NCBI GenBank assembly: GCA_937141935.1
Contig: CAKZQS010000046.1
Location: forward strand, 1-64,000
Direction: 5' to 3'
DNA: 64,000 nt
Source: an uncultured Ectothiorhodospiraceae bacterium
GTDB lineage: Bacteria; Pseudomonadota; Gammaproteobacteria; Nevskiales; Oceanococcaceae
Shown here: one piece after another, positions 1,613 to 23,174 of the stretch
Layout: every line of letters starts with the position of its first letter
How positions within the stretch are numbered: position 1 is the stretch's first letter
The notes under the pieces: model-generated
What the model was told of the DNA's origin: nothing
What the model saw: only the letters and a program-made list of their open reading frames with translations
Database searches by the model: none
Translations under genes and position numbers: made by a program

Positions 1613-1636
1613 TCCGTAATCGAAAGGTGTGCCCGC

Positions 1637-1930: not shown

Positions 1931-1940
1931 CGAAAACCAA

Positions 1941-1966
1941 AAAAGGCGGCCCGAAAGCCGCCTTTT
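1941..1966. terminator. Bidirectional rho-independent terminator
   Basis: A perfect 10-bp stem (AAAAGGCGGC / GCCGCCTTTT) surrounds a 6-nt loop (CCGAAA). T-rich tracts follow on either strand. It sits between the rightward membrane protein gene and the leftward ompA-like gene and can end both. Confidence 0.9.
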
Positions 1967-1986
1967 CTTTGCAAGCCAGTCCGCGA

Positions 1987-2523: not shown

Positions 2524-2597
2524 CTTGTTCTCCCTAGTTCTCGTGGTGCCCGCGGCAGGCACGGCGGCATTATGGCCCATGCGGGCGGCGAGGCCCA

Positions 2598-2670
2598 CCG
2601 CGGGGCGGCGTCAGGCCACCGCGGGGCGGCACCGGGCCCCCGCGGGGCGGCACCGGGCCCCCGCGCCGCG
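2598..2670. repeat. GC-rich 21-bp tandem repeat
   Basis: Three consecutive units start at 2598, 2619 and 2640, with the consensus CCGCGGGGCGGCACCGGGCC plus one base. The second and third are identical; the first differs at a few positions. The array lies in the gap upstream of the ompA-like gene and after the stop of the nuclease gene. Confidence 0.85.
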
Positions 2671-2697
2671 TCCCTGATCACGGCAGCCGTCGGGGCC

Positions 2698-3537
2698 CTA
2701 GTAGCGTGGCGGCGCATCCCAGCGCTCGCCCACGCCCCAGCCCGCGAGCGGCAGCGCGGCCTCCACGGCGGCCTCGACAGCGTCGGGCAGCGCCGGCAGC
2801 AGATCCAGCCCGCTGCGCGCCTCCACCGCATCCACCGTCACCGCGTACTGGCGCAAATCGCCATGGCCGGAGGCCTGCTGCGGCAGGATAAAGGCCAGCG
2901 CGCGGGGCGGCGCTGCAGCGCCGGTGGCCGCGGCCGCACCCGGGTCGAACCACAGCCGCCAGAAGGCCGCGGGCACCGCCACCCCGCCCGGCAGCCGTGG
3001 GGCATCCGCCGCGAACAGCGGGCCGGCCTGGACGACGAAGGCCCGGCCCAGCGCCGGCCGCAGCGCATCCATCTCCAGCTCCTCCAGCCGCTGCCAGGCC
3101 CGCGCATTCAGCGGGTGCCGCTGCGGGCTGATGTTGTGCATGGCGAAGCTGGCCAGCTGGGCCTCCCGGCCATACAGCCGGCTCATCGCGTAGTTAGGGG
3201 CCAGGTGGCCGCGGTCATAGCCACTGCGTCGATAGTCATCGGGGCACACGCCGCCCAGCCAATCCGGCGCGCAGACAAAATGCCGCGGCCGCGGCGCCAG
3301 GTCCCGCAGGGGCCCGGCATGCACCGTCCACTGCACCCACAAGGGGTTGCGCCACCAGGGCGAATAGCCCAGCACAAAGCCCGGCTCGGCCAGCAGCCAG
3401 CTGTATTGCACCAGCCCGGCCGGCCGCGGCCGGCCCTGTTCCAGCTGCGCATGCCCGCGCCAGCCGCCCCAGGCCCCAAGCAGCAGCGAAACAAGGACAA
3501 TAACGGCGATGCCCGCCCCGACTCTCATCGCCCGCAT
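2698..3537 (-). CDS. DNA/RNA non-specific endonuclease (NUC1/DRGH family)
   Basis: This 279-residue protein is a secreted or membrane-anchored sugar-nonspecific nuclease. A hydrophobic segment occupies residues 8-25. The catalytic DRGHLAPN motif is at residues 108-115, with the expected His general base, and downstream comes MHNISPQ with the metal-binding Asn of the beta-beta-alpha metal fold. The rest fits the family length. Starts at 3537 or 3528 are both possible. Its 5' end meets or overlaps the divergent aminopeptidase gene, so the two probably share a promoter region. Physiological role (DNA scavenging or processing) is inferred. Confidence 0.88.
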   Translation of the reverse strand: MRAMRVGAGIAVIVLVSLLLGAWGGWRGHAQLEQGRPRPAGLVQYSWLLAEPGFVLGYSPWWRNPLWVQWTVHAGPLRDLAPRPRHFVCAPDWLGGVCPDDYRRSGYDRGHLAPNYAMSRLYGREAQLASFAMHNISPQRHPLNARAWQRLEELEMDALRPALGRAFVVQAGPLFAADAPRLPGGVAVPAAFWRLWFDPGAAAATGAAAPPRALAFILPQQASGHGDLRQYAVTVDAVEARSGLDLLPALPDAVEAAVEAALPLAGWGVGERWDAPPRY

Positions 3538-4600
3538 TGTGCGCCGATGCGCCTTGCGCCGTCCGCTGCTGCTCCTGCTGCTCGCGCTGCCGCTGCTGGG
3601 CGGCTGCGAAACGCTGGCCTACCACTGGCAGGCGGCCAGCGGCCACCTGCGACTGCTGGCCGGGCGCGCACCGCTGACTGAACTGGCCGCAGACCCCGCC
3701 ACACCGCCGGCCTTGCGCGCCAAGCTGCACACGCTGGCCGACGCGCGGCGCTATGCCAGCGATGCCCTGGGGCTGCCCGACAACCGCAGCTACACGCTGT
3801 ACGCCCCGCTGCCCCATGCGGATCGGCGCGAGCCATCAGCGCGCCAGGCGCTGGTGTGGAATGTCGTGGCCGCGCCGGAGTTCTCGCTGGCGCCCAAGCG
3901 CTGGTGCTTTCCGGTGGCCGGCTGCGTCAGTTACCGAGGCTACTTCGCGCGCGGCGACGCCGAGGCCAAGGCGGCGGAGCTGGCCGCCGCCGGCTATGAC
4001 GTGCTGGTGCGCCCGGCCGCCGCCTACTCGACGCTGGGCTGGTTTGCCGACCCGCTGCCCGAGCCCGTGCTGCAGTGGCGCACCGAGGCCATCGTGCGGC
4101 TGATGTTCCACGAGCTGGCGCACCAGCAGCTGTACGTACCCGGCGACACCCGCTTCAACGAAAGCTATGCCAGCGCCGTGGGCGGCCTGGGCCTGCAGGC
4201 CTGGCGCCGGGCGCAGGGCGAGGCGGCCGCTGTCGAGGCGCCCTCCGCCCGCGCGCGGATCGCCCGCATCCTGGAGCCCACCTACGCCGGGCTGCGCGCG
4301 CTGTACGCCAGCACGCAGCCGGCCGCCGCCAAGCGTGCGGCCAAGGCGGCGCTGCTGGAACAGGCCCGGGCGCGCTATGCCGCAGCCCGCGCCGAATCGG
4401 CCGCCGGGCTGGAACGTTGGGCCGACTGGTTCGCCGCGCTGAACAATGCCCGCCTAGCCGGCTTTGCCGACTACAGCGCCGGCGTCGCCGCCTTCCACCA
4501 GCTCTATGCCGACTGCGAGCAGCGCTGGGATTGCTTCCACGCGGGCGCCGCGCAGCTGGCCGAAAACCCGGCGCGGCGGCGCGCCTTCGTCGGCTCATGA
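3509..4600 (+). CDS. Predicted zinc aminopeptidase lipoprotein (COG4324-like)
   Basis: This 363-residue protein has a lipobox (LLGGC, Cys at residue 33 from this start), suggesting an outer-membrane lipoprotein. The zinc protease motif HELAH is at residues 201-205, followed by FNESYASAVG, where the Glu is a likely third ligand. This layout matches the predicted aminopeptidases of COG4324. An alternative GTG start at 3539 would give a shorter leader and remove the overlap with the divergent nuclease gene, whose ATG ends at 3535. A TonB-dependent receptor gene follows 10 nt downstream. The substrate is unknown. Confidence 0.82.
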   Translation: MPAPTLIARIVRRCALRRPLLLLLLALPLLGGCETLAYHWQAASGHLRLLAGRAPLTELAADPATPPALRAKLHTLADARRYASDALGLPDNRSYTLYAPLPHADRREPSARQALVWNVVAAPEFSLAPKRWCFPVAGCVSYRGYFARGDAEAKAAELAAAGYDVLVRPAAAYSTLGWFADPLPEPVLQWRTEAIVRLMFHELAHQQLYVPGDTRFNESYASAVGGLGLQAWRRAQGEAAAVEAPSARARIARILEPTYAGLRALYASTQPAAAKRAAKAALLEQARARYAAARAESAAGLERWADWFAALNNARLAGFADYSAGVAAFHQLYADCEQRWDCFHAGAAQLAENPARRRAFVGS

Positions 4601-4610
4601 CCCCGGCCGC

Positions 4611-6725
4611 ATGAGTCATGCGATGTCACCCCAGCGCGCACGCCGCAGCATCGCGCGGGCGCTGCTGGCGAAGCTGCTGCTGGCCTTCTCGCTGCTCACG
4701 CCAGCCGCGCTGCAGGCGCAGGCGGCGGCCGAAACTGGCGCCGATGCGACAGGCTCCGGCACGGTGCTGACGCCGATGCAGGTCACCGCGGCGCGCAGCG
4801 CCGAGGCCACCGTCGCCGCGACCCACGCCGTCGCGGTCAGCGAGGCCGCGGACTGGAGCTGGCAGCCGCCGGGCGTGCTGCCGCTGCTGCTGGACGCCCT
4901 GCCCGGCGTCAGCGCGCAGCAAACCACCCCGGGCCAGGGCATCGTCATCGTGCGCGGGCTCAAGGGCTCCGAGCTGCTGCATCTGGTCGACGGCATGCGC
5001 CTGAACTTTGGCTTTCTGCGCAATGCGCCCAACCAGTACCTGGCGCTGGTGGACCTTAGCGCCCTGGCCGCCGTCGAGGTGGTGCGCGGCGCCGCCTCCA
5101 GCCTGTATGGCGCCGATGCGATGGGCGGCGTGGTCAACCTGCGCAGTGTGGAGCCGGCACTGGCCGCCGCCGCCACCCACCGCATCGACTTCGGCGCCAG
5201 CGGGGCCACGGCCGATGACGCCCGCGCCGCGCAACTGCGCCTGAGCCGCGAAGGGCCCCGCTGGGCGGCCAGCCTGGGCGCGGCCGCCCGCGCCTATGGC
5301 GAGCGCCGCGCCGGCGGCGGCCAGGCGCTGCCGGCCACCGCCTACACGGCGCAGGCCGCCGATGCCGCGCTGCGCTTCGCCCCCGCCGCCGGCGGCGCCT
5401 GGCAGCTGCGCCTGCAGCATGCGCGACAGCCGGACACGCCGCGGCACGACCAGCTCGTGGCCGGCTTTGGCGAGAGCGCGCCGCGGCGCAGCGAATTCGC
5501 CTTCGCCCCCAGCCAGCGTGAGTTCGCCCACCTGCGCGCGCACTACGAGCGGCCCTTCGTCGCCGCCGACAGCCTGGAACTGAACCTCGCCTGGCAGCGC
5601 ATCGTAGACGCCACCCGCCGCCGCAGCCTGGGCTCCGACACGCGCCAGCTCGAGGACAACCGCTCGCAGCTCTGGGGCCTGGCCGCGCATGCCCGCAGCG
5701 CGCTCGGCGCCGGCCACACGCTGCGCTACGGCGCCGAGTACTACCGCGACCGCATCGCCAGCAGCGCGCAGTCGCAGTCGCTGGAGGACGGCCGCCGCGA
5801 GCGCCGCGAGAGCCGCTTCCCCGACGGCTCGACGATGCAGCAGGCCGCTGCCTATGCGCAGCACCGCCTCGAAGCGGGCGCGCAGCGGCTGGAGCTGGGC
5901 CTGCGCGCCTCCCAGGTCGAGGTCGACCTCGCCGCCGACGGCAGCCGCCCCGCCAGCAGGCTGCGCCAGCAGGACCTGAGCGGCGATCTGGGCCTGCGCC
6001 GCCAGCTTGGCCCGCGGCTGTCGCTGCATGCGCACCTGGGCCGTGGTTTTCGCGCGCCGAATGTCTTCGACCTCGGCGCCATCGGCCCGCGCCCGGGCGG
6101 CCGCTTCAACGCCCCGAACCCGGAGCTGGCCCCGGAGGTCGTCTACACCGCGGACCTGGGGCTGAAGTGGGCCGGCCCGCGGCTGCACGCCGAGGGCTAT
6201 GTCTGGTGGAGCGAATACCGCGACAAGATCGAGTCGGTCTTCACCGGCGCGCAAACCGGCGAGGGCGAGGACATCGTGCGCAGCGAGAACATCGGCCGCG
6301 TGCAGCTGCGTGGGGCCGAGGCGCTGCTCGACTGGCACCTGGCGCCGCGCTGGTTCCTGCGAATGGCGGGGGAATGGACCTGGGGCGCCACCGCGGCCGG
6401 CGAGCCGGCCGACCGGGTGCCGCCACCCGGGCTGAACGCCGCATTGCAATATCGCCTGGCCGAAGGGCCGCGACTGCGGCTGGGCGTGGATGCCGCCACC
6501 GGCCAGAGCCGGCTGAGCCCCCGCGACCGCGAGGACAGCCGCATCGCCCCCGGCGGCACGCCGGGCTACAGCGACTGGTCGCTGGCCGCCGACTTCGCCC
6601 TGCCCCGTGGCGTGGACCTGACCCTGGGCATCGAGAACCTCTTCGACCGCCGCTACCGCCGCCACGCCTCCGGCGTCGATGCCGCGGGGCGCGGCCTGTA
6701 TTTGCAACTCCGCGCGAGCCTGTAG
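4611..6725 (+). CDS. TonB-dependent outer membrane receptor, heme/hemoglobin-receptor-like
   Basis: The 704-residue protein has a signal peptide ending near LQAQA, a plug domain (SAQQTTPGQGIVIVRGLKGS, later VVRGAASSLYGADAMGGVVN) and a 22-strand-type barrel. The barrel includes GRGFRAPNVFDLGA and a C-terminal IENLFDRRYRRHASG with a final aromatic/Leu strand. The FRAPN signature and overall pattern fit the heme/siderophore-type TonB receptors that move large ligands using the proton motive force. Start at 4611 follows the upstream stop by 10 nt; 4623 is also possible. No TonB/ExbBD genes are nearby. The ligand assignment is tentative. Confidence 0.85.
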   Translation: MSHAMSPQRARRSIARALLAKLLLAFSLLTPAALQAQAAAETGADATGSGTVLTPMQVTAARSAEATVAATHAVAVSEAADWSWQPPGVLPLLLDALPGVSAQQTTPGQGIVIVRGLKGSELLHLVDGMRLNFGFLRNAPNQYLALVDLSALAAVEVVRGAASSLYGADAMGGVVNLRSVEPALAAAATHRIDFGASGATADDARAAQLRLSREGPRWAASLGAAARAYGERRAGGGQALPATAYTAQAADAALRFAPAAGGAWQLRLQHARQPDTPRHDQLVAGFGESAPRRSEFAFAPSQREFAHLRAHYERPFVAADSLELNLAWQRIVDATRRRSLGSDTRQLEDNRSQLWGLAAHARSALGAGHTLRYGAEYYRDRIASSAQSQSLEDGRRERRESRFPDGSTMQQAAAYAQHRLEAGAQRLELGLRASQVEVDLAADGSRPASRLRQQDLSGDLGLRRQLGPRLSLHAHLGRGFRAPNVFDLGAIGPRPGGRFNAPNPELAPEVVYTADLGLKWAGPRLHAEGYVWWSEYRDKIESVFTGAQTGEGEDIVRSENIGRVQLRGAEALLDWHLAPRWFLRMAGEWTWGATAAGEPADRVPPPGLNAALQYRLAEGPRLRLGVDAATGQSRLSPRDREDSRIAPGGTPGYSDWSLAADFALPRGVDLTLGIENLFDRRYRRHASGVDAAGRGLYLQLRASL

Positions 6726-6738
6726 TGTCGGAGGACGC

Positions 6739-7188
6739 ATGCGCCTGCTGTTGATTCTGGCCCTGCTGTGGGCCGAGTTCTGGTCCATCGTGGCCGTCAG
6801 CCGCCCGCTGGGCGGGCTGGCGACCTTCGTGCTGCTGCTGTTGATGGCGGCCATCGGCTCGCGCCTGATCCGCGGCCAGGGCCTGCGCACCGTGGCCAAC
6901 CTGCAGCTCGCGATGCAGCGCGAGCAGCTACCGGCCGCGGCGATGCTCGACGCGGCCATCGTGGTCGTCGCCGGCATGCTGCTGATCTTCCCCGGCTTTG
7001 TCTCCGACGCCTGCGCGCTGGTGCTGATCTTCAGCGGCATCCGCCGCCGGCTGGCGGCGCGGGTCGAGGCGCACATGGCGCGCCAGTACCCGGGCCGCGC
7101 ACGGGCCTATGTGATCGACGGCGAGTTCTACACCGTGCGCGAGGGCGAGGAACCGCCGCCGCGCGAACCCCTCGACCACGAGCGCTAG
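6739..7188 (+). CDS. fxsA: FxsA family cytoplasmic membrane protein
   Basis: The 149-residue protein has three to four hydrophobic helices. It carries the family hallmarks: an early EFW...VSRPLGG segment, a central QREQLPA loop, and LIFPGFVSDACAL followed by an arginine-rich IRRRLAARV stretch. FxsA is an inner-membrane protein known in E. coli for relieving F-plasmid exclusion of phage T7; its general function is unsettled. GGAGG lies just before the ATG at 6739. It follows the TonB receptor by 13 nt and is probably in the same transcript. The tail is acidic and proline-rich. Confidence 0.85.
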   Translation: MRLLLILALLWAEFWSIVAVSRPLGGLATFVLLLLMAAIGSRLIRGQGLRTVANLQLAMQREQLPAAAMLDAAIVVVAGMLLIFPGFVSDACALVLIFSGIRRRLAARVEAHMARQYPGRARAYVIDGEFYTVREGEEPPPREPLDHER

Positions 7189-7310
7189 GCGCCCGCCCGG
7201 CCGAGGTCCTGGCCGAGTTCCCGGCCAAACCCGGCGCGGCCAGGCGGGGGCTGTAACACACGCATCGCCGCGTCCCGTTAGGCTGGCGCCACCACAGGGG
7301 GAGTACACCA

Positions 7311-9353
7311 GTGACACGGATTCTTGTCGGCGGCTGCGTGCTGCTCAGCACGGCGGCCTGGGGCGGCGGAATTCCGGCCACGCAGCTTGATGCGATGACG
7401 GTGGTGGGCCAGCCGGCGCCGCGGCCGGCCACCTCGGCCGCGCAAGGTGTGGTCACCGATGTGCAACTGCAATCGCGCCCGGTGGCGCGCACCGCCGAGC
7501 TGCTGGAGTTCGTGCCCGGCATGGTGGCCACGCAGCACAGCGGCGAGGGCAAGGCCAACCAGTATTTTTTGCGCGGCTTCAACCTCGATCACGGCACCGA
7601 CTTCGCCACCTGGTTGGACGGCATGCCGGTCAACCTGCGCTCGCACGGCCACGGCCAGGGCTATACCGACCTCAACTTCTTGATTCCGGAAATGGTCGAG
7701 ACGCTGGTCTACCGCAAGGGCCCCTACGCGGCCGAGGTGGGCGACTTCTCGGCCGCCGGCAGCGCGCACTTCGCGCTGCGCCAGAATCTGGAGGCGCCGC
7801 AAACGACGCTGACGCTGGGCGAGAACGGCTACCGGCGCGGCCTGCTCGCTGCCGCACCGCAGCTTGGCGCCGGCCGCCTGCTGCTGGCCGGCGATGTCAC
7901 CCGCTATGAGGGCCCCTGGGTGCTGGACCAGGACCTGTCGGCGCTGAAGCTGCTGGGCCGCTACAGCCAGGGCCAGGCCGATCAGGGCTACACGCTGACG
8001 GTCATGGCCTACGACAACGAATGGACGGCCACCGACCAGATTCCGCAGCGCGCGGTGGCCAGCGGCGCCATCGACCGCCTGGGCTTCATCGACCCCACCG
8101 TCGGCGGCGACAGCCACCGCTACAGCGTCTCCTTCAACAGCCATACGCACCTGGCACGCGGCCACTGGGGCCTGTCGGCCTATGCCATCGACTACGCGCT
8201 GCAGCTCTATTCCAACTTCACCTATTTCCTCGAGGACCCGGAGGACGGCGACCAGTTTGAGCAGCTCGACGAGCGCCGGGTCTATGGCCTGGCGGCGCAC
8301 CGCAACCTGCCGCTGAACGCCGAGCGCCGCCTGGAACTCGACTACGGCCTGCAACTGCGGCACGACGCGATTGGCGACGTGGGGCTGTTCCGCACCCGCG
8401 CGCGGCAGCGGCTGGGCACCGTGCGCCGCGACCAGGTGGACGAAAGCACCGCCGGGCTGTGGTCCGAGCTGCGCTATGCGCCCGCGCCGCGCTGGCGGCT
8501 AACCGCCGGGCTGCGCGTGGACGCTTACCGTTTCGACGTCGACGCACGGCGCCCGGAGAACTCCGGCAGCGCCGACGACCTGATCGTCTCGCCCAAGCTC
8601 GGCGCGCGTTTTCAGGCCACGCCGGCCCTGTCGTTGTACGCCAACCTGGGGCGCGGCTTTCACAGCAACGACGCGCGCGGCACCGTCATCGCGACCGACC
8701 CGGCCGACCCGGACGGGCCCGGCGTCAGCCCGGTCGAGCCGCTGGTCGCCGCCGATGCCGTGGACCTGGGCGCCGTGCTCCGCCTGGGCTCGACGGCCCA
8801 GCTCTCCATGACGGCCTGGGCGCTGGAGCTGGATTCGGAGCTGGTCTATGTGGGGGATGGCGGGGCCACCGAGGCCGCCGATGCCAGCCGCCGCCGCGGC
8901 CTGGAATTCTCGGCCTACCTCACGCCCTGGCCGGCGCTGATCGTCGACCTCGACTACGCCTATTCGCACGCGCGCTTCGACATCGACGCGGCCGCCGATC
9001 GCATCCCCAACGCCGTGGAGCGCGTGGCCTCGCTGGGGTTGACCCTGACCGGCACGCGCGGCTGGTCGGGGGGGCTGCGGCTGCGGCACCTGGGCCCCGC
9101 CCCGCTGATCGAGGACAACAGCACCCGCTCCGATTCGACCACCGTGCTGAACCTGCGGGTGGATTACGCGGCCAGCGAGTCGCTGCAGCTGAGCCTGAGC
9201 GCCTTCAACCTGCTCGACTCCGAGGACAACGACATCACCTACTTCTACGCCTCGCGCCTGCCCGGCGAGCCGGAGGCCGGGGTCGAGGACACGCATTTCC
9301 ACCCGGTCGAGCCGCGGCAGTTGCGCGCCAGCCTGAGCTGGAGCTGGCGCTAG
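7311..9353 (+). CDS. TonB-dependent outer membrane receptor
   Basis: The 680-residue protein has a short signal peptide, a TonB-box-like region (LDAMTVVGQPA), a plug domain (YFLRGFNLDHGTDFATWLDG; then VYRKGPYAAEVGDFSAAGSA) and a barrel ending in RASLSWSWR, a typical aromatic C-terminal strand. The start is GTG at 7311, chosen because AGGGGGAG precedes it by about 8 nt and the signal peptide follows directly. It differs clearly from the receptor at 4.6 kb, so it is not a tandem duplicate. Its substrate is unknown; receptors with this plug sequence are often annotated only as TonB-dependent receptor. Confidence 0.88.
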   Translation: MTRILVGGCVLLSTAAWGGGIPATQLDAMTVVGQPAPRPATSAAQGVVTDVQLQSRPVARTAELLEFVPGMVATQHSGEGKANQYFLRGFNLDHGTDFATWLDGMPVNLRSHGHGQGYTDLNFLIPEMVETLVYRKGPYAAEVGDFSAAGSAHFALRQNLEAPQTTLTLGENGYRRGLLAAAPQLGAGRLLLAGDVTRYEGPWVLDQDLSALKLLGRYSQGQADQGYTLTVMAYDNEWTATDQIPQRAVASGAIDRLGFIDPTVGGDSHRYSVSFNSHTHLARGHWGLSAYAIDYALQLYSNFTYFLEDPEDGDQFEQLDERRVYGLAAHRNLPLNAERRLELDYGLQLRHDAIGDVGLFRTRARQRLGTVRRDQVDESTAGLWSELRYAPAPRWRLTAGLRVDAYRFDVDARRPENSGSADDLIVSPKLGARFQATPALSLYANLGRGFHSNDARGTVIATDPADPDGPGVSPVEPLVAADAVDLGAVLRLGSTAQLSMTAWALELDSELVYVGDGGATEAADASRRRGLEFSAYLTPWPALIVDLDYAYSHARFDIDAAADRIPNAVERVASLGLTLTGTRGWSGGLRLRHLGPAPLIEDNSTRSDSTTVLNLRVDYAASESLQLSLSAFNLLDSEDNDITYFYASRLPGEPEAGVEDTHFHPVEPRQLRASLSWSWR

Positions 9354-9393
9354 GGCGTACTTCCAGCGTGCGGCCAGGCGCCCAGCCGGTCGT

Positions 9394-9816
9394 CTAGCCG
9401 GGCGCGTGCTGGGCGAAGAACTGGGCGCCGGTCAGCATGGCCGGCGACTCGCCCAGCGAATAGAAGTCGGGCTTGGCGTCCACGAAAATCTGCGCGTCCA
9501 GGCGCCAGTCGGCGCCGCCCTGCAGCAGACCCACCGGCAGCACGTACTGCCCGGTCTGCTTGACCCGGAAATACAGATGCGTGCCGCAGTGCTTGCAAAA
9601 AGCCCGCTGCGCCCATTCCGAGGAGTCATAGGCGGTGATGTGCTCCTCGCCGCTGAAGCGCACCGCGTGGGCGTCCTCCAGCGCGAAGAAGGGCCCGCCG
9701 CCCCAGGTGCGACAGGCGCTGCAATGGCAGGCGCCCACGCCGGGCGCGCTGACGGTGGCCTGCACCTGCACCTGCCCACACAGGAATTGCCCCTGAATCG
9801 CGTGTTCCTTGGCCAT
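9394..9816 (-). CDS. GFA family protein (CENP-V/glutathione-dependent formaldehyde-activating fold)
   Basis: This 140-residue protein belongs to the Mss4-like zinc-binding GFA family. The cysteines are in the expected places: C13 in FLCG, C30/C32/C35 in CHCSAC and C74/C77 in CKHCGTH. Length and Cys spacing match the family. Most members have no proven activity, so the formaldehyde name should not be taken as function. It reads convergent to the TonB receptor upstream on the other strand, with a 40-bp gap, and is followed by no co-directional gene. Confidence 0.88.
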   Translation of the reverse strand: MAKEHAIQGQFLCGQVQVQATVSAPGVGACHCSACRTWGGGPFFALEDAHAVRFSGEEHITAYDSSEWAQRAFCKHCGTHLYFRVKQTGQYVLPVGLLQGGADWRLDAQIFVDAKPDFYSLGESPAMLTGAQFFAQHAPG

Positions 9817-9861
9817 GGCGGTCTCCTCCCTGGTTGTCTGTCGGGCGTGTCCGGCGGCGCC

Positions 9862-11535
9862 TCAACCGGGGTCGATCAGGGCGCAGACCGGGTTGTCGGC
9901 GCCGAAGTTGTCGACGCACTGACGGTGATATCCGCGCTGAATGTAGTCCAGCTGCGCCGGGATGTCTTCGAGGATGCAGCGCTCGGCCACCGACTCGTCG
10001 TAGCAGGCCAGCAGGGCCGGCGGCGCGAAGGCCTCGGGCGGGGCGTCGAACAGCGGCGCGTAGGCCTGGACGCGCAGCAGCGGCGCCGTCAGCGGGCCCA
10101 GCGACACGAACTCCTCATAGCCGGTGAAGGGCAGCACGAAGCCGTCGTCGCCCGTGGGGTTCAGGTAGCTGAACTCCTCCTCCGGCAGGATGTAGCCAAA
10201 GGAGTTCTGGGTCAGGCCAAAGAGCATCACGTCGCGCCCGCCGGCCAGGCTCTGCACGTATTCGCCGAAGGTGTTGGTGGCCTCGCCGGGCAGCGTGACG
10301 ATCTCCAGGTCCTCGCCAAAGCTCAGCCGGGTCACCGGCGTCACCGCATAGGGCGCGAGCTGCGGCAGGTTCTGCGTGAGCGGCCCGACCCCGGGCAGGT
10401 CGCCCAGCGGCAGCTCGGTGAAGTCGTAATAGCGGTTGAAGCCGCCGATGCCGGCCGCGGCCAGAAAGACGGGGTTGGTAACCGGCAGGTAGGCGGTGGC
10501 CGTACGCAGCGTCAACGCGCCGCTGATCGGCCGCGCTTCGGCCAGGCTGGCGGCGGCCGCCAGATCCTCGCCGCGGCAGCGCACACGCACATACACATCG
10601 CCCTCGCAATCGCCGCCGCGCGCCGAGGCATCGGCGATGGGGCCGTTGAAGAACAGCGCCACCCCGCCCTCGCGCTCCAGATAATCCATCGCGCCCAGCG
10701 GGTAATCCGGGTGCGGCACGCGCGGGTCCTCGCCGGTACCCACCGAGGTGGGGTGGGCGTTGTACTGCAGCAGCGAGCCGATCAGCTCGCCGCTGGCCGC
10801 ATCACGGGCGCGCAGGATCGAGGCGGTGGTGTCGGCCTCGGCATCGCGGAACACGCGCGGCCGGCGGTAGTTGTTGAAGTCCGGCAGCTCGCTGCGCTGG
10901 TAGTCCAGCGTGGCCGGCCGGGCCAGCAGCTGTGCCTCGACCGCGGCGTCGGCGGCGGCGACGTACAAATCGGCCACCCAGCTCCGCGGCACGCCGCCCC
11001 ACAGGCCCTGCAGGTCGGCGCCGGCATGGGTATGGGTCTGGCCGAAGACGATGTGCGTGGGGTCGATGCCGGTGGCGGCGCTGACGGCGGCCTTCAGCTC
11101 GTTCTGGATGATGTTGCCGGCGCCCACGGCGTCCAGCGCCAGCAGCAGCACATCGGTGCCCGAGTCGGTGTCGGACAACCACAGCGCGCGGATCCAGGTG
11201 CGCTCCTCCTCGCCTTGCGCGTTGACGTGCACCGGCGCGCCGGCGGGCACCGTCAGGTCGGCATTGATGGGGTCGGGGAAGTTCTGCAGCGGGCCGATGC
11301 CAAAGCCGCCGAGGTGGAAGTTCTGCACCGTGCTGGCCACGCCCAGCCGGCTCTCCTCCTCGCCGGCGATCTGCTCGGCGGTGGGCACCACGCTGCGCTT
11401 GGCCGCGCCGACCAGCAGCGCAGACTCGGCGCGCGGCGCCGGGTCCACGGCCTCGGGGCCCGTGCGCCCGCCATTGCAAGCGGCGAGCAGGCTCAGCGAC
11501 ATCAGGGGGATCAGGGTCGATGCGAATCCGCGCAT
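9862..11535 (-). CDS. Neutral/alkaline ceramidase-like lipoprotein
   Basis: The 557-residue protein has a lipobox (LLAAC at residues 14-18 from this start), so it is probably anchored in the outer membrane. The body resembles the N-terminal domain of neutral ceramidases: an opening VGAAKRSVVPT segment, LWLSDTD...LLLALDAVGAG, a metal-binding FGQTHTHAGADLQGLW motif and, later, VTLPGEATNTFGEYV. Neutral ceramidases hydrolyse the ceramide amide bond with a zinc centre. Start at 11535 was chosen for the lipoprotein signal and the nearby GGAGA. The stop of the GH92 gene is 46 bp upstream, so the two form a probable operon. The actual substrate may differ from ceramide. Confidence 0.75.
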   Translation of the reverse strand: MRGFASTLIPLMSLSLLAACNGGRTGPEAVDPAPRAESALLVGAAKRSVVPTAEQIAGEEESRLGVASTVQNFHLGGFGIGPLQNFPDPINADLTVPAGAPVHVNAQGEEERTWIRALWLSDTDSGTDVLLLALDAVGAGNIIQNELKAAVSAATGIDPTHIVFGQTHTHAGADLQGLWGGVPRSWVADLYVAAADAAVEAQLLARPATLDYQRSELPDFNNYRRPRVFRDAEADTTASILRARDAASGELIGSLLQYNAHPTSVGTGEDPRVPHPDYPLGAMDYLEREGGVALFFNGPIADASARGGDCEGDVYVRVRCRGEDLAAAASLAEARPISGALTLRTATAYLPVTNPVFLAAAGIGGFNRYYDFTELPLGDLPGVGPLTQNLPQLAPYAVTPVTRLSFGEDLEIVTLPGEATNTFGEYVQSLAGGRDVMLFGLTQNSFGYILPEEEFSYLNPTGDDGFVLPFTGYEEFVSLGPLTAPLLRVQAYAPLFDAPPEAFAPPALLACYDESVAERCILEDIPAQLDYIQRGYHRQCVDNFGADNPVCALIDPG

Positions 11536-14041: not shown

Positions 14042-14773
14042 CTACAGCCGCAGCAGCATCGCCAGCGCCATGCCGACCATCAGCAGGTTCTCGCTAAGCG
14101 AGACAAAGCCCAGCGGCACATTGCTGTTGCCGCCCACGCAGGCGCACTTGAGCTCGCGCTTGTCGATGTACACGGCCTTGATGACCGAGGCGGCCCCTTC
14201 GCTGCCGATGAACAGCGCCACCGGCGCCACCAGCGCCGGCGCGAATCCGGCCAGCATCCCCAGCCCGGCAAAGGCCTCGGCGTAGGCATAGACACGGGCG
14301 TAGGGGACCCAGCGCTGGCTCAGCAGGTCGTAGGGCAAAAACTGCAGCGTGAAGGCATGCAGGTCGCGCAGCTTCTGCAGCGACAGCAGCACCATCGCGC
14401 TGCCCACGAACCAGGCCAGCGTGTCGAAACGCAGCAGCGGGCCGGCGCTGTTCCAGGCCAGCGCCAGCGCCATCAGCGCGGCCAGCCCGAACAGCGCGAT
14501 GATCGGGCGATAGGTGGTGGCATCGGGGTCCGGCGCCTGGCCCAGATGCGCACGCAGCGCCTCGTAGCCGCCGATGCGCTCGCCGTCGATGAAGGTCTGC
14601 GGGGTGGTCTTGACGCCGTGCTCGGCCTTGAAGGCCTCGGTCTGTTCGCGATCCACCAGCCGGTGGTCGTCGACCGCGTAGCCCTGGCTGCGCAGCAGAT
14701 GCCGCGACATCAGCCCATAGGGGCAGACATGGCCGGCGGTGTCCATGCGATAGAGCGTGGCCTTGCGACTCAT
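14042..14773 (-). CDS. Glutaredoxin-MauE/DoxX-like fusion membrane protein (copy 1)
   Basis: The 243-residue protein begins with a glutaredoxin domain (residues about 5-80: active site CPYG at 17-20, then VKTTPQTFIDGERIGGY with the cis-Pro loop). It continues into a four-helix membrane domain of MauE/DoxX type, ending with KRELKCACVGGNSNVPLG, a conserved Cys-Ala-Cys pair after helix 3. Such fusions are thought to move thiol electrons in the membrane. The ATG overlaps the stop of the DUF411 gene by 4 nt (ATGA), implying translational coupling. A close paralogue lies at 43301-44032 in the copper island. Function is inferred. Confidence 0.85.
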   Translation of the reverse strand: MSRKATLYRMDTAGHVCPYGLMSRHLLRSQGYAVDDHRLVDREQTEAFKAEHGVKTTPQTFIDGERIGGYEALRAHLGQAPDPDATTYRPIIALFGLAALMALALAWNSAGPLLRFDTLAWFVGSAMVLLSLQKLRDLHAFTLQFLPYDLLSQRWVPYARVYAYAEAFAGLGMLAGFAPALVAPVALFIGSEGAASVIKAVYIDKRELKCACVGGNSNVPLGFVSLSENLLMVGMALAMLLRL

Positions 14774-15333
14774 ACGGCACGCCCCTCGGCGCCGGCTGGC
14801 ACCGATTGGTCGGTCTGACCCGGTTGCTGGTGCTGCGCCCAGGCCTGCGGCTCGCTGGCGCCTTCCACGCCGTAGAGCCAGACCGTGTAGGGCTGGCGCC
14901 GGTCGCCGACCTCCATGCCGGGCGAGCCCAGCGGCATGCCGGGCACCGCCAGGCCGGCGGCGGCGGGCCGCTCGCGCAGCAAGCGGCGCACATCCTCGGC
15001 CGGCACATGGCCTTCGATCACATAGCCATCGATGGTCGCCGTGTGGCAGGAGCCCAGCTCGGCCGGCACGCCCAGGCGGGCCTTGACCTTGTTGATCTGC
15101 GGCTCCTCGACCACCTCGACGGTGAAGCCTTCGGCCTGCATGTATTCGGCCCAGGCGCCGCAGCAGCCGCAGGTGGGGCTCTTGTAGACCACCAGCGGGG
15201 GCGGCGGCTCGGCTTTCTGTGCGGCGGCGCCTTGTTGCGGGGCCGGGGCCTGCTCGGCGCCGCAGGCGCTCAGCAGCAGAAGCAGGAGGGGGGTCAGCAG
15301 TCGGGTCATGGCGGTCGCAGTGGCAGCAATCAT
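14770..15333 (-). CDS. DUF411 metal-binding lipoprotein (copy 1)
   Basis: The protein is 187 residues from 15333, or 179 from the ATG at 15309; neither start has a strong ribosome site. A lipobox (LLSAC) is followed by a Pro/Ala/Gln spacer and the DUF411 domain. The domain shows YKSPTCGCCGAW (thioredoxin-like Cys cluster), GSCHTATIDGYVIEGHVPA and GLAVPGMPLGSPGME. DUF411 proteins are commonly found with copper genes and are thought to bind metal, but their mechanism is not established. The gene overlaps the glutaredoxin-MauE gene by ATGA. It is paralogous to the gene at 41329-41919. Confidence 0.85.
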   Translation of the reverse strand: MIAATATAMTRLLTPLLLLLLSACGAEQAPAPQQGAAAQKAEPPPPLVVYKSPTCGCCGAWAEYMQAEGFTVEVVEEPQINKVKARLGVPAELGSCHTATIDGYVIEGHVPAEDVRRLLRERPAAAGLAVPGMPLGSPGMEVGDRRQPYTVWLYGVEGASEPQAWAQHQQPGQTDQSVPAGAEGRAV

Positions 15334-15714: not shown

Positions 15715-17601
15715 ATGCCGATGACGACTGCCGCCGCGCACCGCGCGCGGCCCGGGGCGCGCTATGCCCGCCCCCTGGCGGGCTGCCTGCTCGCCACTAC
15801 CGCCCTGCTCGCCGCCTGTGGGGGCGGCCGCGACGCCGCCGTGGTGGCCGACGCGCCGCGGGTCGACAGCCCGACGCCGGGCCGCGCCGACGAGGAGGTC
15901 TTCGTGCTCGAGGAGGCCGACATGCTGCGCGTGCACCGCGCGCTGGCCGGCGAGCTGCCGCTGGCCGACGGCTCCACGCTGACCTGCGCCGTGCTGGTCG
16001 AGCAGTACATCCAGCGCATCTTCGCGATCAACGACCACCCCCAGCCCAGTGGCGGCCGCCCGGTGCGCGGCGTGCTGCACATCAACCCGCATGCGCGCGA
16101 CATCGCCGCCGAACTGGACGCGGCCTACGAGCGTGACGGCGGCGTGGGCAACCGCCCGCTGCACTGCATGCCGGTGCTGCTCAAGGACAACTACGACACC
16201 TACGACCACCCCTCGACCTCGGGCTCCTACGCGATGCTCGGGCACCAGGCGGGCGTGGACGCCGACTCGGTCGTGGGCCTGCGCGAGGCCGGCGCCGTGA
16301 TCCTGGGCAAGGCCAACCAGGACGAGTTCGCCTTTTTCACCACCGGCTTTTCGGCGCGGGCGATCCAGGTCAGCAACCCCTACAACACCGCGGAGAGCCC
16401 GGCCGGCTCCTCCTCCGGCACCGGCGCATCGATCGCCGCCAACTTCGCCATTGGCGGCACCGGCTCGGACACCTGCCAGTCGATCCGCCACCCCAGCTCG
16501 GTGAACGGCCTGGTCGGCATCCGCCCCAGCCTGGGCGTAATCAGCCAGCACGGCATCTACCCGCTGTCGCATGGCCGCGATACCGGCGGGCCGATGACCC
16601 GCAGCGTGCGCGACGCGGCGCTGATGCTCGACGCGATGGCCCGGGTCGACCCGCGCGACGCGAAAACGCTGGACTTCCCGGCCAGCGCGCGCCCGGACAG
16701 CTACACCGCCTACCTGAACCGCGCGGTGCACGGCGTGGCCGGCCGCAACATCGGCGTGGCCCGGCAGGTCGGCGGGCTGCAAAGCCCGGCCGGCAGCGGT
16801 GCCCAGGGCGAGCTGATCGCCGCCGCCGTGGCCCAGCTCGAGGCCATGGGCGCAAACATCTACGACGTCTACCTGCCCGACTTCCAGAGCCGCGGCGCGG
16901 GCAGCGCGCACTGGGACATGAACGACTACTTCCGCCAGTTCGAGGCCGAGGGCGGCAGCAGCCCGCGGCGCTGCGTGTCCAGCACCTTTGCCACCGAAAC
17001 CAATGAGCGCGGCGACTGCCTGGGCCTGGACGGCGTGCTGGAAACGCTGCGCGTGGGCCCGCGCTCGGCCGCGCTGTACGCCGCCGTGGCCGCCGGCGAC
17101 CCGGACCGCGAGGCCACAGAAGAGGAAGAACAGGCCATTGCCGCCGAGCGCGACTACGTGACCGGCGTGATGGACGCGCTGGTCGACGCCGAGGGCGAGC
17201 CGGTGCTGGGCCCCGACGGCCTGCCGGTGCGCCTGGACGCCATCGTCCTTTCGCCCGGCCCCAGCGGCGGGCGCACCTGCGACTTCGGTTCGACCACCCG
17301 CATGGGCTCGATTGTCGTGCCGGTGGGCTTTGACGAATCGGTGGGCGTGCCACGCGGCATGGAGATCTTCGTGCGCCGCTTCGACGAGGGCACCGGCATC
17401 GGCATCGCCTATGACTACGAGCAGGCCACGCAGCACCGGCGCCCGCCGGTGCTGGAAGCCTCGCCGCTGACCGCGCAGGCCACGCTGGCCGACTTCAACG
17501 CCCGCCAGCAGCAGGCGCTGATGACGGCGACCTCGGGCGCGCCCGAAGACCTGCCGCTGGCCGTGTACCAGCAGGCGCTCGAAGAGCTGGTCGGGCCCTG
17601 A
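15715..17601 (+). CDS. Amidase-signature family lipoprotein
   Basis: The 628-residue protein is an amidase of the Ser-cisSer-Lys class. The catalytic Lys lies in LLKDNYDTYDHPSTSGS, and the glycine/serine-rich signature SPAGSSSGTGASIAANFAIG contains the cis-Ser and the nucleophile region (GGTGSDTCQSIRHPSS). A lipobox (LLAAC) near residue 34 suggests export and membrane anchoring, unusual for cytoplasmic amidases but known in secreted members. Start at 15715 is preceded by GAGAG. A lysyl-oxidase-like gene follows 59 bp later in the same direction. The substrate is unknown; secreted amidases of this group may act on peptides or acylated amines. Confidence 0.87.
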   Translation: MPMTTAAAHRARPGARYARPLAGCLLATTALLAACGGGRDAAVVADAPRVDSPTPGRADEEVFVLEEADMLRVHRALAGELPLADGSTLTCAVLVEQYIQRIFAINDHPQPSGGRPVRGVLHINPHARDIAAELDAAYERDGGVGNRPLHCMPVLLKDNYDTYDHPSTSGSYAMLGHQAGVDADSVVGLREAGAVILGKANQDEFAFFTTGFSARAIQVSNPYNTAESPAGSSSGTGASIAANFAIGGTGSDTCQSIRHPSSVNGLVGIRPSLGVISQHGIYPLSHGRDTGGPMTRSVRDAALMLDAMARVDPRDAKTLDFPASARPDSYTAYLNRAVHGVAGRNIGVARQVGGLQSPAGSGAQGELIAAAVAQLEAMGANIYDVYLPDFQSRGAGSAHWDMNDYFRQFEAEGGSSPRRCVSSTFATETNERGDCLGLDGVLETLRVGPRSAALYAAVAAGDPDREATEEEEQAIAAERDYVTGVMDALVDAEGEPVLGPDGLPVRLDAIVLSPGPSGGRTCDFGSTTRMGSIVVPVGFDESVGVPRGMEIFVRRFDEGTGIGIAYDYEQATQHRRPPVLEASPLTAQATLADFNARQQQALMTATSGAPEDLPLAVYQQALEELVGP

Positions 17602-17660
17602 GACCGGCCGCCCGCCGCCGCCACCAATATGCCAATCCGCCCATCCACCGGAGACCTGAG

Positions 17661-19253
17661 ATGCGCGCAACCCTGACCACGCTCGGCCTGCTGGCCGCAG
17701 CCCACCTGCCCGCCGGCGCCCATGGCGGTGCCCACCCGGCCACGGCCGCCACGCCCAAGGCCGAAGCCAGCAACTACGCCCATCGCTACGAGGCGACCAA
17801 GGCGGACAACGGCCTGCTGGAGCTGGACGAAGCCTATTTCTGGCACCAGTCGCGCACCTTCGATGGCAGCGTGCCCAACCGCGCCGCCTGCACGCCGGAG
17901 AGCTGCGAGGAATACACGCTGCAGGTCGAGTCCGGCGCGGCGCGGCTGCGCGTGGGCATTGCCACCGCCGAGCGCACCGACACCTTCGCCGTCGAGCTCT
18001 ACGACCCGCAGGGCACGCTGGTGGCCAGCGACACGACCGCCAACCAGTTCAACTCCGAGGCCAGCGTCGAGGCCCCCGCCGCCGGCGACTGGACGGTGGT
18101 GGTGCGCCCGGACGATGTCAGCATCGCCAGCTACCGGCTGCGCGCCAAGCTGGAATCGGTCACGCCGGAATCGCGCCTGGCGACCAACGCCAGCGCGCGC
18201 CGGCCGCTGTACCCGAACCTGCGCACCGTGCCGCCCTATGAATTCACCTTCACCGCGCCGGCCAACCCGGCCAACGGGCTGTACCCGCCGGATTCGGTGA
18301 ACCCGCCGGCCTCGGTGGCCGGCCAGTCGCTGATTTCCTGCATGGCCGACGAGGCCGCGCCGCCCGGGGCCGGCGGCGCCGGCGCCATCCATTGCCTGCG
18401 CCTGACCTCGGGCCCGATCAACATCGGCGAGGGCATCTATGACATGCGCTTCAAGCTGATCGAGGATTTCCTGGCCGGCGATGCCGAGCTGAATCCCGAG
18501 GAGGCCTTCGCCCGCGTCGTGGTGGGCGACATGCAGCAGGCGGTGCACTACAGCGATGGCAGCATCGAATTCGTCGAGGCGGGCACCTATTCCTTCCACC
18601 CGACGCATGCGCACTTTCACGACGACTACATCCTGAGTTACTACCTCTACCGCGTGCTCGACCCGCTCAGCGGCGAGCTGGAGCGCGTGGGAATCGGCAC
18701 CAAGTCCGGCTTCTGCCCCGCCGACCAGCTCTGGGGCAACTGGCGTGAATTCGAGCAGGGCACCGAGAAGCCCGGCGGCGACAGCCCCGGCGGCAACTGC
18801 TTCTCGCCCACCAACGGCGTGGTCGGCCTGTCGGTGGGCTGGGGCGATGTCTACCGCTGGCAGCGCCCGGGGCAATACGTCGAGTTCGACGGCCTGGGCA
18901 ACGGCCGCTATGTCGTGCACGCGATGGTCGACGAATACAACAACGTGATCGAGTCCGACGAGACCGACAACGTCTCCTATGCCTACATCGAGGTGCAGGG
19001 CGAGACGATCACCATCCTTGAGCGCGGCTGGGGCGTGTCGCCCTGGGATGCGAACAAGGAGGTCTTCAGCGGCCCGCACCCGACCCAGCGCGCCGCCGAC
19101 TACGCCGGCCAGCCGCGCCCGGCGCGGGCGCTGGACACGGCCGCCGCGGGGCCCACCGCCGGCGGTGGGGCCCTGGGCCTGGTGGGCACCGGCCTGATGC
19201 TGGGCCTGGGCCTGCTGGGAGCCATGCTTGGGGGGAGGCGCCGCCTGCCTTAA
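17661..19253 (+). CDS. Secreted lysyl-oxidase-like protein with C-terminal anchor
   Basis: The 530-residue protein has a signal peptide (cleavage near PAGAHG), a beta-rich pre-domain resembling a C-terminal peptidase domain (VESGAARLRVGIAT; PAAGDWTVVVRPDD), then a lysyl-oxidase-type domain. The copper-site motif is seen as FHPTHAHFHDDYILSYYLY, with three alternating His. Downstream come KSGFCPADQLWG and VDEYNNVIESDETDN, both typical of bacterial LOX-like proteins. The C-terminus is a Gly-rich hydrophobic segment followed by GGRRRLP, a sorting-signal-like tail. Lysyl oxidases oxidise peptidyl lysine with copper and a quinone cofactor. The stop codon is inside a hairpin. Function is inferred from the family. 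Confidence 0.78.
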   Translation: MRATLTTLGLLAAAHLPAGAHGGAHPATAATPKAEASNYAHRYEATKADNGLLELDEAYFWHQSRTFDGSVPNRAACTPESCEEYTLQVESGAARLRVGIATAERTDTFAVELYDPQGTLVASDTTANQFNSEASVEAPAAGDWTVVVRPDDVSIASYRLRAKLESVTPESRLATNASARRPLYPNLRTVPPYEFTFTAPANPANGLYPPDSVNPPASVAGQSLISCMADEAAPPGAGGAGAIHCLRLTSGPINIGEGIYDMRFKLIEDFLAGDAELNPEEAFARVVVGDMQQAVHYSDGSIEFVEAGTYSFHPTHAHFHDDYILSYYLYRVLDPLSGELERVGIGTKSGFCPADQLWGNWREFEQGTEKPGGDSPGGNCFSPTNGVVGLSVGWGDVYRWQRPGQYVEFDGLGNGRYVVHAMVDEYNNVIESDETDNVSYAYIEVQGETITILERGWGVSPWDANKEVFSGPHPTQRAADYAGQPRPARALDTAAAGPTAGGGALGLVGTGLMLGLGLLGAMLGGRRRLP

Positions 19254-21617: not shown

Positions 21618-23033
21618 CTAGCGGAAGGCCTCGGGGATCGTGACCTCGAAGGTCGTGCCCGTCGGCGCGCCGAAGAAGTCCGGCCCACGCTGGGAACTGA
21701 AGTACAGCCGCGAGCCATCGGGCGAGAAGGCCGGCCCGCAGATCTCAGAGCCTGTATGCCGCAGCGAGAGCTGCACCAGCACTTTGCTGGGCTGGTTGGG
21801 GATCAGCACCATGATGCGGATGGCGCCCGTATCCGGATTGTCCTCGGCCACCAGGATGTCGCCGCGCGGGCTGACGGTGATGTTGTCCACATCCGAAAAG
21901 GCGGGGTCGATCTGGCTGTTGTCGAAAATCAGCTCGACCAGCGCATTTTCGATGTCGTAGGCCCAGACGCGGTTGTCGCCCTTGGTCGAGAAGAAGACCA
22001 GACCCTTGGTCGGCCGGCTGCCCCCTTCTGGCACCGTGCGGACGGCGGGCGGCAGCTCGTAGAACCAGCAGCCCTCGCCGCCGTCGAAAATGGTGCCCGG
22101 GCCGCGGTTGCTGCTTTGCGGCTGGTCCGGGGCCAGCGCGTCGACCCAGGTCACCGGGTGCAGCGTACGCAGTTGTTCGGTGGCATCGGCGGTGTCGCCG
22201 CCGTCCTCGAAGCCGGCGATGTTCATCACCTGCAGGCGCCCCTGCTCCATGGCCAGCCGGCCGTTGGCGGCATCGAAATCGGCCGGGTCGGCCACCCAGC
22301 GGTAGAAGCGGCCATCGCCGGTGTCCTCGGTCTGGTACAGCGTGCGGTTTTCCAGGTCGACCACCGCGGCCTCGTGCGCGAACAGGCCCAGCGCCGGCTT
22401 GGCGATACCCTGGCCGGGGTTGTAGGGGTCGCACTCCCAGGTCATGCCGCTGCCGGTCTCCTCGCAGGAGAGCCAGGTGCCCCAGGGTGTTTTGCCGCCG
22501 GCGCAGTTCATCGCCGTGCCGGTCAGGATGGAATAGGCATCGACGATGCTGCCGTCCGGGTCGAAGACCAGCGCGCCGCATCCACCCAGACCATCGACGA
22601 GCAGCACCTCGCTGTTCGAGGTGTAGATCCAGCCGCCGTTGTCGCGCGCATAGGTCGCGCCGCCATCCGGGAAGGGGTGCCAGGCATACCCGGTGGACGA
22701 GATCGCCGCCAGGCTGGCACTGCTGTTCTGGGCAACGATGCGCGAGCTGAAGCCCTCCGGCAGCAGCAGCTCATCGGCGTTGGCCGCCTGCAGCGGGCCG
22801 ATGCCCGCCAGCGGGCCGCTGGGGATGCTGAGCTGGCCGCCGCCGGCCGCGGGCCCCGGCGGCAGGCTCGGTGCCGGCGTCGGGCCGCTGCCCGGAGCGG
22901 CGGCGGCGCCACCGGGGCGGCCGCCATCGAAACAGGCCGACAGCAACGGTCCGGCGCCGGCGGCGGCGCCGGTCAGGAAAACATGGCGCAGGAAGGCGCG
23001 CCGCGGCATGGCGGTGGGGGCAGTTTGGGTCAT
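21618..23033 (-). CDS. PhoX-like alkaline phosphatase (DUF839) with Tat-type signal
   Basis: The 471-residue protein has a Tat-like leader (MPRRAFLRHVFLTGAAAG) with a lipobox-like LLSAC, a low-complexity Gly/Ala/Pro linker, then a PhoX beta-propeller. The signature NCAGGKTPWGTWLSCEE contains the metal-binding Cys/Glu cluster, and later segments include HEAAVVDLENRTLYQTEDTG and NITVSPRGDILVAEDN. PhoX enzymes are Ca/Fe phosphatases that release phosphate from phosphomonoesters in the periplasm. No phosphate-regulon box was recognised upstream. The gene is divergent from the amine oxidase gene, 141 bp away. Confidence 0.82.
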   Translation of the reverse strand: MTQTAPTAMPRRAFLRHVFLTGAAAGAGPLLSACFDGGRPGGAAAAPGSGPTPAPSLPPGPAAGGGQLSIPSGPLAGIGPLQAANADELLLPEGFSSRIVAQNSSASLAAISSTGYAWHPFPDGGATYARDNGGWIYTSNSEVLLVDGLGGCGALVFDPDGSIVDAYSILTGTAMNCAGGKTPWGTWLSCEETGSGMTWECDPYNPGQGIAKPALGLFAHEAAVVDLENRTLYQTEDTGDGRFYRWVADPADFDAANGRLAMEQGRLQVMNIAGFEDGGDTADATEQLRTLHPVTWVDALAPDQPQSSNRGPGTIFDGGEGCWFYELPPAVRTVPEGGSRPTKGLVFFSTKGDNRVWAYDIENALVELIFDNSQIDPAFSDVDNITVSPRGDILVAEDNPDTGAIRIMVLIPNQPSKVLVQLSLRHTGSEICGPAFSPDGSRLYFSSQRGPDFFGAPTGTTFEVTIPEAFR

Positions 23034-23174
23034 GGGGGCTCCAGCGGGGACGGGCTTGTGGCGCCCGCTCAACCGCTTGTTCTAGCAGCCGCAGATGACA
23101 GCGCGATGACCTGCGTTCAGGCAGCCAAAGCCGGGCCGGCTTCCGCCTATGATGGCCAGCGAGGAGGAGCCGGC

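Follow-up and report, generated by a model that had tools for sequence, protein, structure and literature searches.

The animal relatives of the protein described here are the lysyl oxidases, copper enzymes that cross-link collagen. In human LOX the quinone is formed by K320 and Y355 and copper is bound by a histidine core (motif WEWHSCHQHYHSMD), and the first histidine of the copper motif was reported to be absent from bacterial sequences (Grau-Bove et al., 2015, PMC4448552). The haloarchaeal lysyl oxidase is an active and promiscuous amine oxidase, sensitive to 3-aminopropionitrile, which in vitro oxidises taurine, cadaverine, histamine, lysine peptides, polymyxin and aminoglycosides, and it releases hydrogen peroxide but is cryptic in its own host (Pestov et al., PMC6452851).

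The second described system to which the locus has to be compared is the sorting of GlyGly-CTERM proteins by rhombosortase. Haft and Varghese (2011, PMC3237569) described the co-distribution of rhombosortase with the type II secretion system (T2SS), with no particular T2SS subclass, and after curation counted a maximum of 13 GlyGly-CTERM proteins per genome. By their account the model of these C-termini, TIGR03501, is not exhaustive, and low scorers were promoted by family alignment. The words 'lysyl' and 'oxidase' are absent from the main text of that paper, and so is 'gsp'. In Vibrio cholerae, VesB is cut by rhombosortase, has a lipid-linked end and reaches the cell surface by the T2SS (PMC6219818). 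The GlyGly-CTERM and the protease suffice in this organism for membrane association only, the surface location needing a second secretion signal, and VesC, also a GlyGly-CTERM protein, is released (PMC13393428). Pullulanase and InvL are T2SS surface proteins with a lipobox anchor, and they are GspN-dependent (PMC12802150). Among the openly licensed papers listed by our searches, none joined lysyl oxidase with GlyGly-CTERM, rhombosortase or peptide amidase; a lysyl oxidase as sorting cargo, a swap of its anchor and its pairing with an amidase were not met in these searches either.

Our analysis started from one window of an Oceanococcus-like bacterium, which is the whole stretch of 64,000 nucleotides of DNA that was analysed, and from one gene in it, whose product is here called P0001 (Table 1). 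The first-pass annotation had read this gene as coding for a lysyl-oxidase-like protein, and this reading was confirmed: the open reading frame is exact and PF01186 (Lysyl_oxidase) matches residues 308-452 with 31.3 bits at a cut-off of 20.4 (31.8 bits in the genome search). P0001 is the sole PF01186 match of its genome at E <= 0.001, and none of the 14 control genomes has a match, while NCBIfam models gave no match to P0001 at E <= 1. Human LOXL2 (5ze3) was the only relative of solved structure that we found; the single-sequence phmmer search reached it weakly (E 0.2) and a four-row family profile led to the same human chain at 7.4e-17. AlphaFold, run on two sequences (P0001 and its relative L022), gave a mean pLDDT of 37.4, the best-predicted part being the strands at residues 83-165. 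The beta-sandwich pre-domain that had been proposed ahead of the copper motif is a PPC-like domain, the PPC match (residues 85-149) having 24.0 bits under a cut-off of 25.9. Scans for promoters and terminators at the locus returned zero sites.

Table 1. Features of the oxidase gene and its amidase neighbour, in window coordinates.
Feature	Position	Strand	Basis
Amidase-signature protein, lipobox-type start LLAAC/GGG, Cys35	15715..17601	+	PF01425 222.5 bits (score taken on the longer ORF from 15679); start = ATG at 15715
Lysyl oxidase-like P0001, 530 aa plus stop	17661..19253	+	ORF from ATG to stop; PF01186
Predicted Sec signal peptide, residues 1 to about 22, without lipobox	17661..17726	+	Sequence reading, hydropathy, lipobox scan
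PPC-like beta domain, residues 83-165	17907..18155	+	Sub-cut-off PPC match; beta strands in model
Lysyl oxidase domain, residues about 183-452	18207..19016	+	Conserved alignment block; PF01186 at 308-452
Copper motif HPTHAHFH, residues 313-320	18597..18620	+	Aligned to LOXL2 HDCHRHYH (phmmer)
Lys348, proposed quinone-forming lysine	18702..18704	+	Aligned to LOXL2 GHKASFC
Tyr398, proposed quinone-forming tyrosine	18852..18854	+	Aligned to LOXL2 DMYRHD
GlyGly-CTERM-like tail, residues ~498-530, GPTAGGGALGLVGTGLMLGLGLLGAMLGGRRRLP	19152..19250	+	L004 pairwise score; alignment position shared with 9 orthologue tails

The copper ligands and the quinone-forming lysine and tyrosine, on which the first reading depended, are all kept and align to LOXL2. 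The motif HAHFH occupies residues 316-320 of P0001 and H313 stands ahead of it, giving HxxHxHxH. None of the residues H313, H316, H318, H320, K348, Y398, C352 and C380 varies over the 15 aligned rows, P0001 included; 13 of these rows come from the order (P0001 among them) and two are other gammaproteobacterial lysyl oxidases, L026 and L027. The first histidine of the motif is thus found in every row here, which differs from the statement of Grau-Bove et al. on bacterial lysyl oxidases. P0001 resembles the known lysyl oxidases (PF01186; human LOX and LOXL2; HTU-LOX of Haloterrigena turkmenica) in its family, in HxxHxHxH and in the proposed quinone Lys and Tyr. Contrastingly, its domain is divergent, the Lys-Tyr spacing is longer, and a PPC-like pre-domain and a putative membrane or lipid anchor are added. 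P0001 has every lysyl oxidase feature that a sequence can decide, and it is very probably a copper/quinone amine oxidase.

Orthologues of P0001 occur in 13 of the 85 genomes of the order, its own included, and the other copies are 57-74% identical. Three of four genomes in the family of P0001 have an orthologue, the one without being the same-genus genome G001. The relative L022 comes from an Oceanococcus MAG, Oceanococcus being placed in Gammaproteobacteria, and also represents G003 (L024 is the same protein by eye); L025 is the G002 protein already given by L044 and was left out of the tree and of the residue counts. PF01186 was found in at least 1 of 398 genomes of a phylum-wide sample, namely the window's own, and in at least 3 of 369 genomes of a class sample, again with the window's own, and both counts are lower bounds because relatives from the order score near or below the cut-off (L047, 18.7 bits). 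Viral contigs were scanned twice for relatives and gave 48 pattern matches each time, none of which was confirmed; plasmids searched for relatives gave zero matches.

The tail of P0001 is tripartite: GGGALGL is followed by a hydrophobic stretch and by GGRRRLP, and the motif is without Cys. In its Gly-rich motif, hydrophobic stretch, terminal Arg cluster and signal peptide the protein is like those sorted by the GlyGly-CTERM/rhombosortase system (Haft and Varghese, 2011; VesB), from which it differs in a tail under the model cut-off and in a cargo that is a lysyl oxidase. TIGR03501 did not match the P0001 tail at E <= 1 or at E <= 10, and a model made from the ten over-cut-off tails of its own genome gave it a negative score (rank 565 of the 574 reported). 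Its hydrophobic stretch is long, with 7 extra residues aligned against the tail of L004, a GlyGly-type C-terminus of the same genome. When compared pairwise, the two tails (GGGALGL..GGRRR) score 74, the best of 500 shuffles being 60. Among the 18 tails compared with P0001 in this way, L004 is the best and alone exceeds all 500 shuffles; seven tails, that of L004 among them, were equalled by no more than 25 of the 500 shuffles, and L011, L015, L016 and L020 were ordinary. A tripartite tail pattern, which was composed post hoc when the P0001 tail was already known, matches 4 distinct ORFs among 602 (P0001, two orthologues and the rhombosortase itself) and recovers 12 of 18 TIGR03501 matches and 5 of 10 tailed lysyl oxidase rows.

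As the P0001 tail lies under both models, the argument for sorting rests on the orthologue tails. With the own-genome model the five best of 613 scored C-termini are the tails of L053, L054, L022, L055 and L044, with L022/L044 and L054/L055 being near copies; L049 follows at rank 7, L048 at 21, L051 at 28 and L047 at 413. This ranking is without the C-terminus of the rhombosortase itself, which had earlier been third with 9.9 bits. The Gly-rich motif and the hydrophobic stretch stand at the same alignment position in all ten rows of the bacterial families f1 and f258, P0001 included, and the basic end is weak in L049 and L051. Therefore, given the failure of the models and the evidence of the family alignment, we term the P0001 tail GlyGly-CTERM-like: the sorting-type tail of the first-pass annotation is of the GlyGly-CTERM kind by the orthologue tails, but the copy in P0001 scores below both the public and the own-genome model. 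Since orthologues in other genera keep these residues and have a tail in the equivalent position, the observation goes beyond chance.

A protease for such a tail is encoded in the genome. The first-pass annotation had compared the tail with those cut by rhombosortase-type proteases and would have been refuted by a genome that lacks a sorting protease; a rhombosortase gene was indeed found, so that this refutation fails, with a TIGR03902 score of 136.6 bits at a cut-off of 84; a second rhomboid reaches 35 bits and none of the 14 control genomes is over the cut-off. Rhombosortase is over the cut-off in 12 of the 13 genomes of the order with the oxidase (the exception, G811, is 88% complete), and also in six of the eight tested genomes of the order without it (G001, G790, G799, G804, G807 and G812; not G173 and G281), so its presence is weak evidence. 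The background of the order is 18 of 21 genomes tested, and the co-occurrence of rhombosortase and oxidase was dropped as evidence on the comparison of these two groups. TIGR03501 has 18 matches at E <= 10 in the genome, ten of them over the cut-off (1 of 14 control genomes has any over the cut-off), and 17 of the 18 end at most 14 residues from the stop codon. We catalogued 17 GlyGly-type C-termini of this genome, ten over the cut-off, under L004-L021. Pfam assigned three of seven GlyGly-tail proteins to hydrolases (beta-lactamase fold, thermolysin type and trypsin type) and one to an Ig type, and three were unmatched.

The genome also encodes GspD (575 bits) and GspN (130 bits). Its rhombosortase gene is divergent from the adjoining gspG-to-N run (L046: 7146-7769 (+) versus 1634-7120 (-)), in which the gene names beyond GspN and the rhomboid were assigned by sequence reading. 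A gspG-like gene adjoins the rhombosortase gene divergently in 18 of 18 loci of the order (L002 and L057-L073 among them) and in neither of two loci outside it; this divergent pair is a physical link of the sorting protease with the secretion system.

The route that these genes suggest would begin with Sec export of P0001 from the cytoplasm, after which the C-terminal tail would hold the protein in the inner membrane. Rhombosortase would then cut at the Gly-rich motif and the lipid-linked end would be handed to the T2SS, which by analogy to VesB would put P0001 on the cell surface. P0001 is almost certainly located outside the cytoplasm; that the tail is processed by rhombosortase and that the protein stands on the surface is probable. 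The PPC-like domain might conceivably serve as a second secretion signal of the kind needed in V. cholerae. One could argue that the tail is a plain anchor, uncut by rhombosortase, and that P0001 remains on the periplasmic side of the inner membrane, as its tail fails the models and has the longer hydrophobic stretch, and the tails of L049 and L051 have their weak basic end. However, no control C-terminus scores as high as the tails of five orthologues, the L004 tail shares the GGGALGL and GGRRR ends, and in family f259 a lipobox-type start is found in place of the tail, which together make a plain anchor quite improbable.

The tail is present in 10 of the 13 orthologues and absent from the three f259 rows L050, L052 and L056; the N-termini LSAC/SGS of L050 and L052 fit a lipobox, and CYAC/SGG of L056 fits it only loosely. 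In the tree of the lysyl oxidase domain the f259 rows form one clade (100/100), which joins two f258 rows (95/98) and lies among rows that have a tail. Thus, with the tail absent, a lipobox-type start present and the rows nested in tailed relatives, the anchor was apparently replaced and not lost, and the simplest reading is that the tail was lost and that the opposite end of the protein acquired a lipid anchor. The root of this tree is a midpoint chosen for drawing and is not firm because both outside rows have very long branches; if the tree were rooted on the f259 branch, the tail would be the more recent of the two anchors. Anchors of the tail type and of the lipobox type are both known for T2SS surface proteins (PMC6219818, PMC12802150). 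The f259 orthologues share the lipobox-type start with pullulanase and InvL, and the GspN mentioned above is that of the window's genome.

The first reading had also placed an amidase lipoprotein near the oxidase, which our analysis supports: the amidase gene lies upstream on the same strand, with 59 nt between its end and the oxidase start, its product has a lipobox-type start, and the arrangement recurs in two bacterial families. The best relative of solved structure is the peptide amidase 1m21 (E 2.1e-51), with which the regions LLKDN, AGSSSGTG and TCQSIR align, and these we take to be the Lys, cis-Ser and nucleophile Ser motifs. The motif regions are thus alike in the neighbour and in peptide amidase Pam (PDB 1m21), but the neighbour has the lipobox-type start and is too distant for a transfer of the substrate.

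An amidase stands directly upstream in 6 of the 13 oxidase loci, that is in three of three in f1, in three of three in f259 and in none of seven in f258, the last count being made within flanks of about 8 kb. All six paired amidases open with a lipobox-type pattern, the LCAC of L022 and L044 being less typical. The distance from the amidase end to the oxidase start, on the same strand, is 22 nt in L022 and L044, 86 in L083 and 70 in L084; together with the window these values cover five of the six pairs, L082 being excluded because its oxidase start is unplaced. When the window is aligned with L022 or L044, the amidase-oxidase pair is the sole aligned DNA (15913-19104, about 74-75%); one of the comparisons with relatives was made with the window's first 40 kb. 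The amidases of f259 have 62-68% identity to another amidase of the window's own genome, L038 on contig 24, and about 40-42% to the window's neighbour. In L085 (5905-9482) this second amidase of the genome, of the type that neighbours the f259 oxidases, follows not an oxidase but a protein that matches a PETase-like family weakly (29.7 bits, cut-off 28).

The oxidase and the amidase need not occur together, as the pair is missing from these flanks of all seven f258 loci and G001 has kept the amidase (71% identity) with the oxidase absent. Two amidase subfamilies in the same position and order in two bacterial families indicate that the pair may have formed, or been formed anew, on two occasions: an amidase may have been recruited twice, or an old pair may have had its amidase exchanged, with a loss in f258. 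It could be that the amidase and the oxidase are adjacent by chance and without a functional link, since seven of the 13 loci are unpaired and amidase-signature genes are no rarity (the own genome of 3.57 Mb has three matches at E <= 1e-30). Yet the pair is retained while both flanks differ between two genera, and in another family a second amidase subfamily occupies this position with the gene order unchanged. Three amidase matches per 3.57 Mb make the same placing twice by chance improbable, which is a rough and uncalculated argument. We therefore consider a chance neighbourhood unlikely and a functional link of oxidase and amidase, where they are paired, likely.

Beyond the amidase, no conserved neighbours were found outside single genera among the 25 largest flank clusters. 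In the window, genes for a MauE/glutaredoxin protein (14042-14773 (-)) and for a DUF411 lipoprotein (14770-15309 (-)) adjoin the pair upstream on the opposite strand and are possibly thiol or metal related; considered as copper genes, they were rejected as parts of the system, as they lie outside the stretch common to the window and L022, L043 and L044. The third gene beyond the oxidase (21618-23072 (-)), on the other strand, belongs to the PhoX-type alkaline phosphatase family (109.8 bits) and has a twin-arginine-like start by eye.

From the family and its catalytic residues, the position and conservation of the tail, the rhombosortase and T2SS genes and the repeated placing of the amidase, all of which can be read in the DNA, we infer how catalysis, processing, location, substrates and cooperation might go together. 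On the surface P0001 would act as an oxidase of primary amines (polyamines, small amines and the side chains of lysine), giving aldehydes and releasing ammonia and hydrogen peroxide, and the lipoprotein-type amidase would hydrolyse amides of the same extracellular material. The amidase could free amines that the oxidase then oxidises, or each enzyme could separately strip ammonia from amide or amine groups, which would amount to nitrogen scavenging at the surface; this use for nitrogen is close to a comment that Pestov et al. made about their haloarchaeal enzyme (PMC6452851). As a whole, this explanation, a surface quinone amine oxidase acting at the paired loci jointly with an amidase on amides and amines outside the cell, is the best we can offer and is a tentative one, somewhat short of an even chance.

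An alternative use of the same chemistry is cross-linking, in which the surface oxidase would make allysine-type aldehydes on the organism's own matrix or surface protein, which would then cross-link. The chemistry is that of the animal lysyl oxidases, and the polymer so cross-linked could also be trimmed by the amidase. In L045, from another gammaproteobacterium (G076), a tailless lysyl oxidase (8082-10088) directly follows a long Gly-rich ORF (5309-8002) with a signal-peptide-like start, and by our reading this arrangement looks like the more natural candidate for cross-linking. In the loci studied here, however, the amidase alone among the 25 largest shared flank families recurs across bacterial families, and cross-linking of bacterial collagen-like protein was judged unlikely by Grau-Bove et al. 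(PMC4448552). A cross-linking role of P0001 is thus an unlikely one in our opinion, and cross-linking of exopolymer, one of the roles that the first-pass annotation had offered, is possible but unsupported. The preference for nitrogen release, or for a relay from amide to amine to aldehyde, over cross-linking stands at about an even chance.

The hydrogen peroxide itself could also be the useful product, directed at the surface against neighbours, or the oxidase could be a shield that inactivates amine-bearing antibiotics; the haloarchaeal enzyme does oxidise polymyxin and aminoglycosides and releases hydrogen peroxide (PMC6452851). Direct support for a weapon or shield is absent from our data and the amidase pairing would be left unexplained by it, so we regard it as the most improbable of the explanations considered, below even the plain anchor.

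The role of bacterial and archaeal lysyl oxidases is an open question (PMC4448552, PMC6452851). A bacterial subfamily of lysyl oxidases apparently tied to the surface and standing beside a secreted amidase in two families makes this question testable. Taken jointly, our findings might describe a new two-enzyme surface module of this order of Gammaproteobacteria, with a lipoprotein amidase and a quinone amine oxidase on the outer surface converting extracellular amides to aldehyde, ammonia and peroxide, with an oxidase anchor that changed between lipobox and rhombosortase tail and with an amidase recruited twice from different subfamilies, although it is doubtful that all of these parts hold at once. 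If true, an amine oxidase would be added to the cargo of rhombosortase, and the anchor swap would be nature's own experiment, suggesting that tethering matters for the oxidase.
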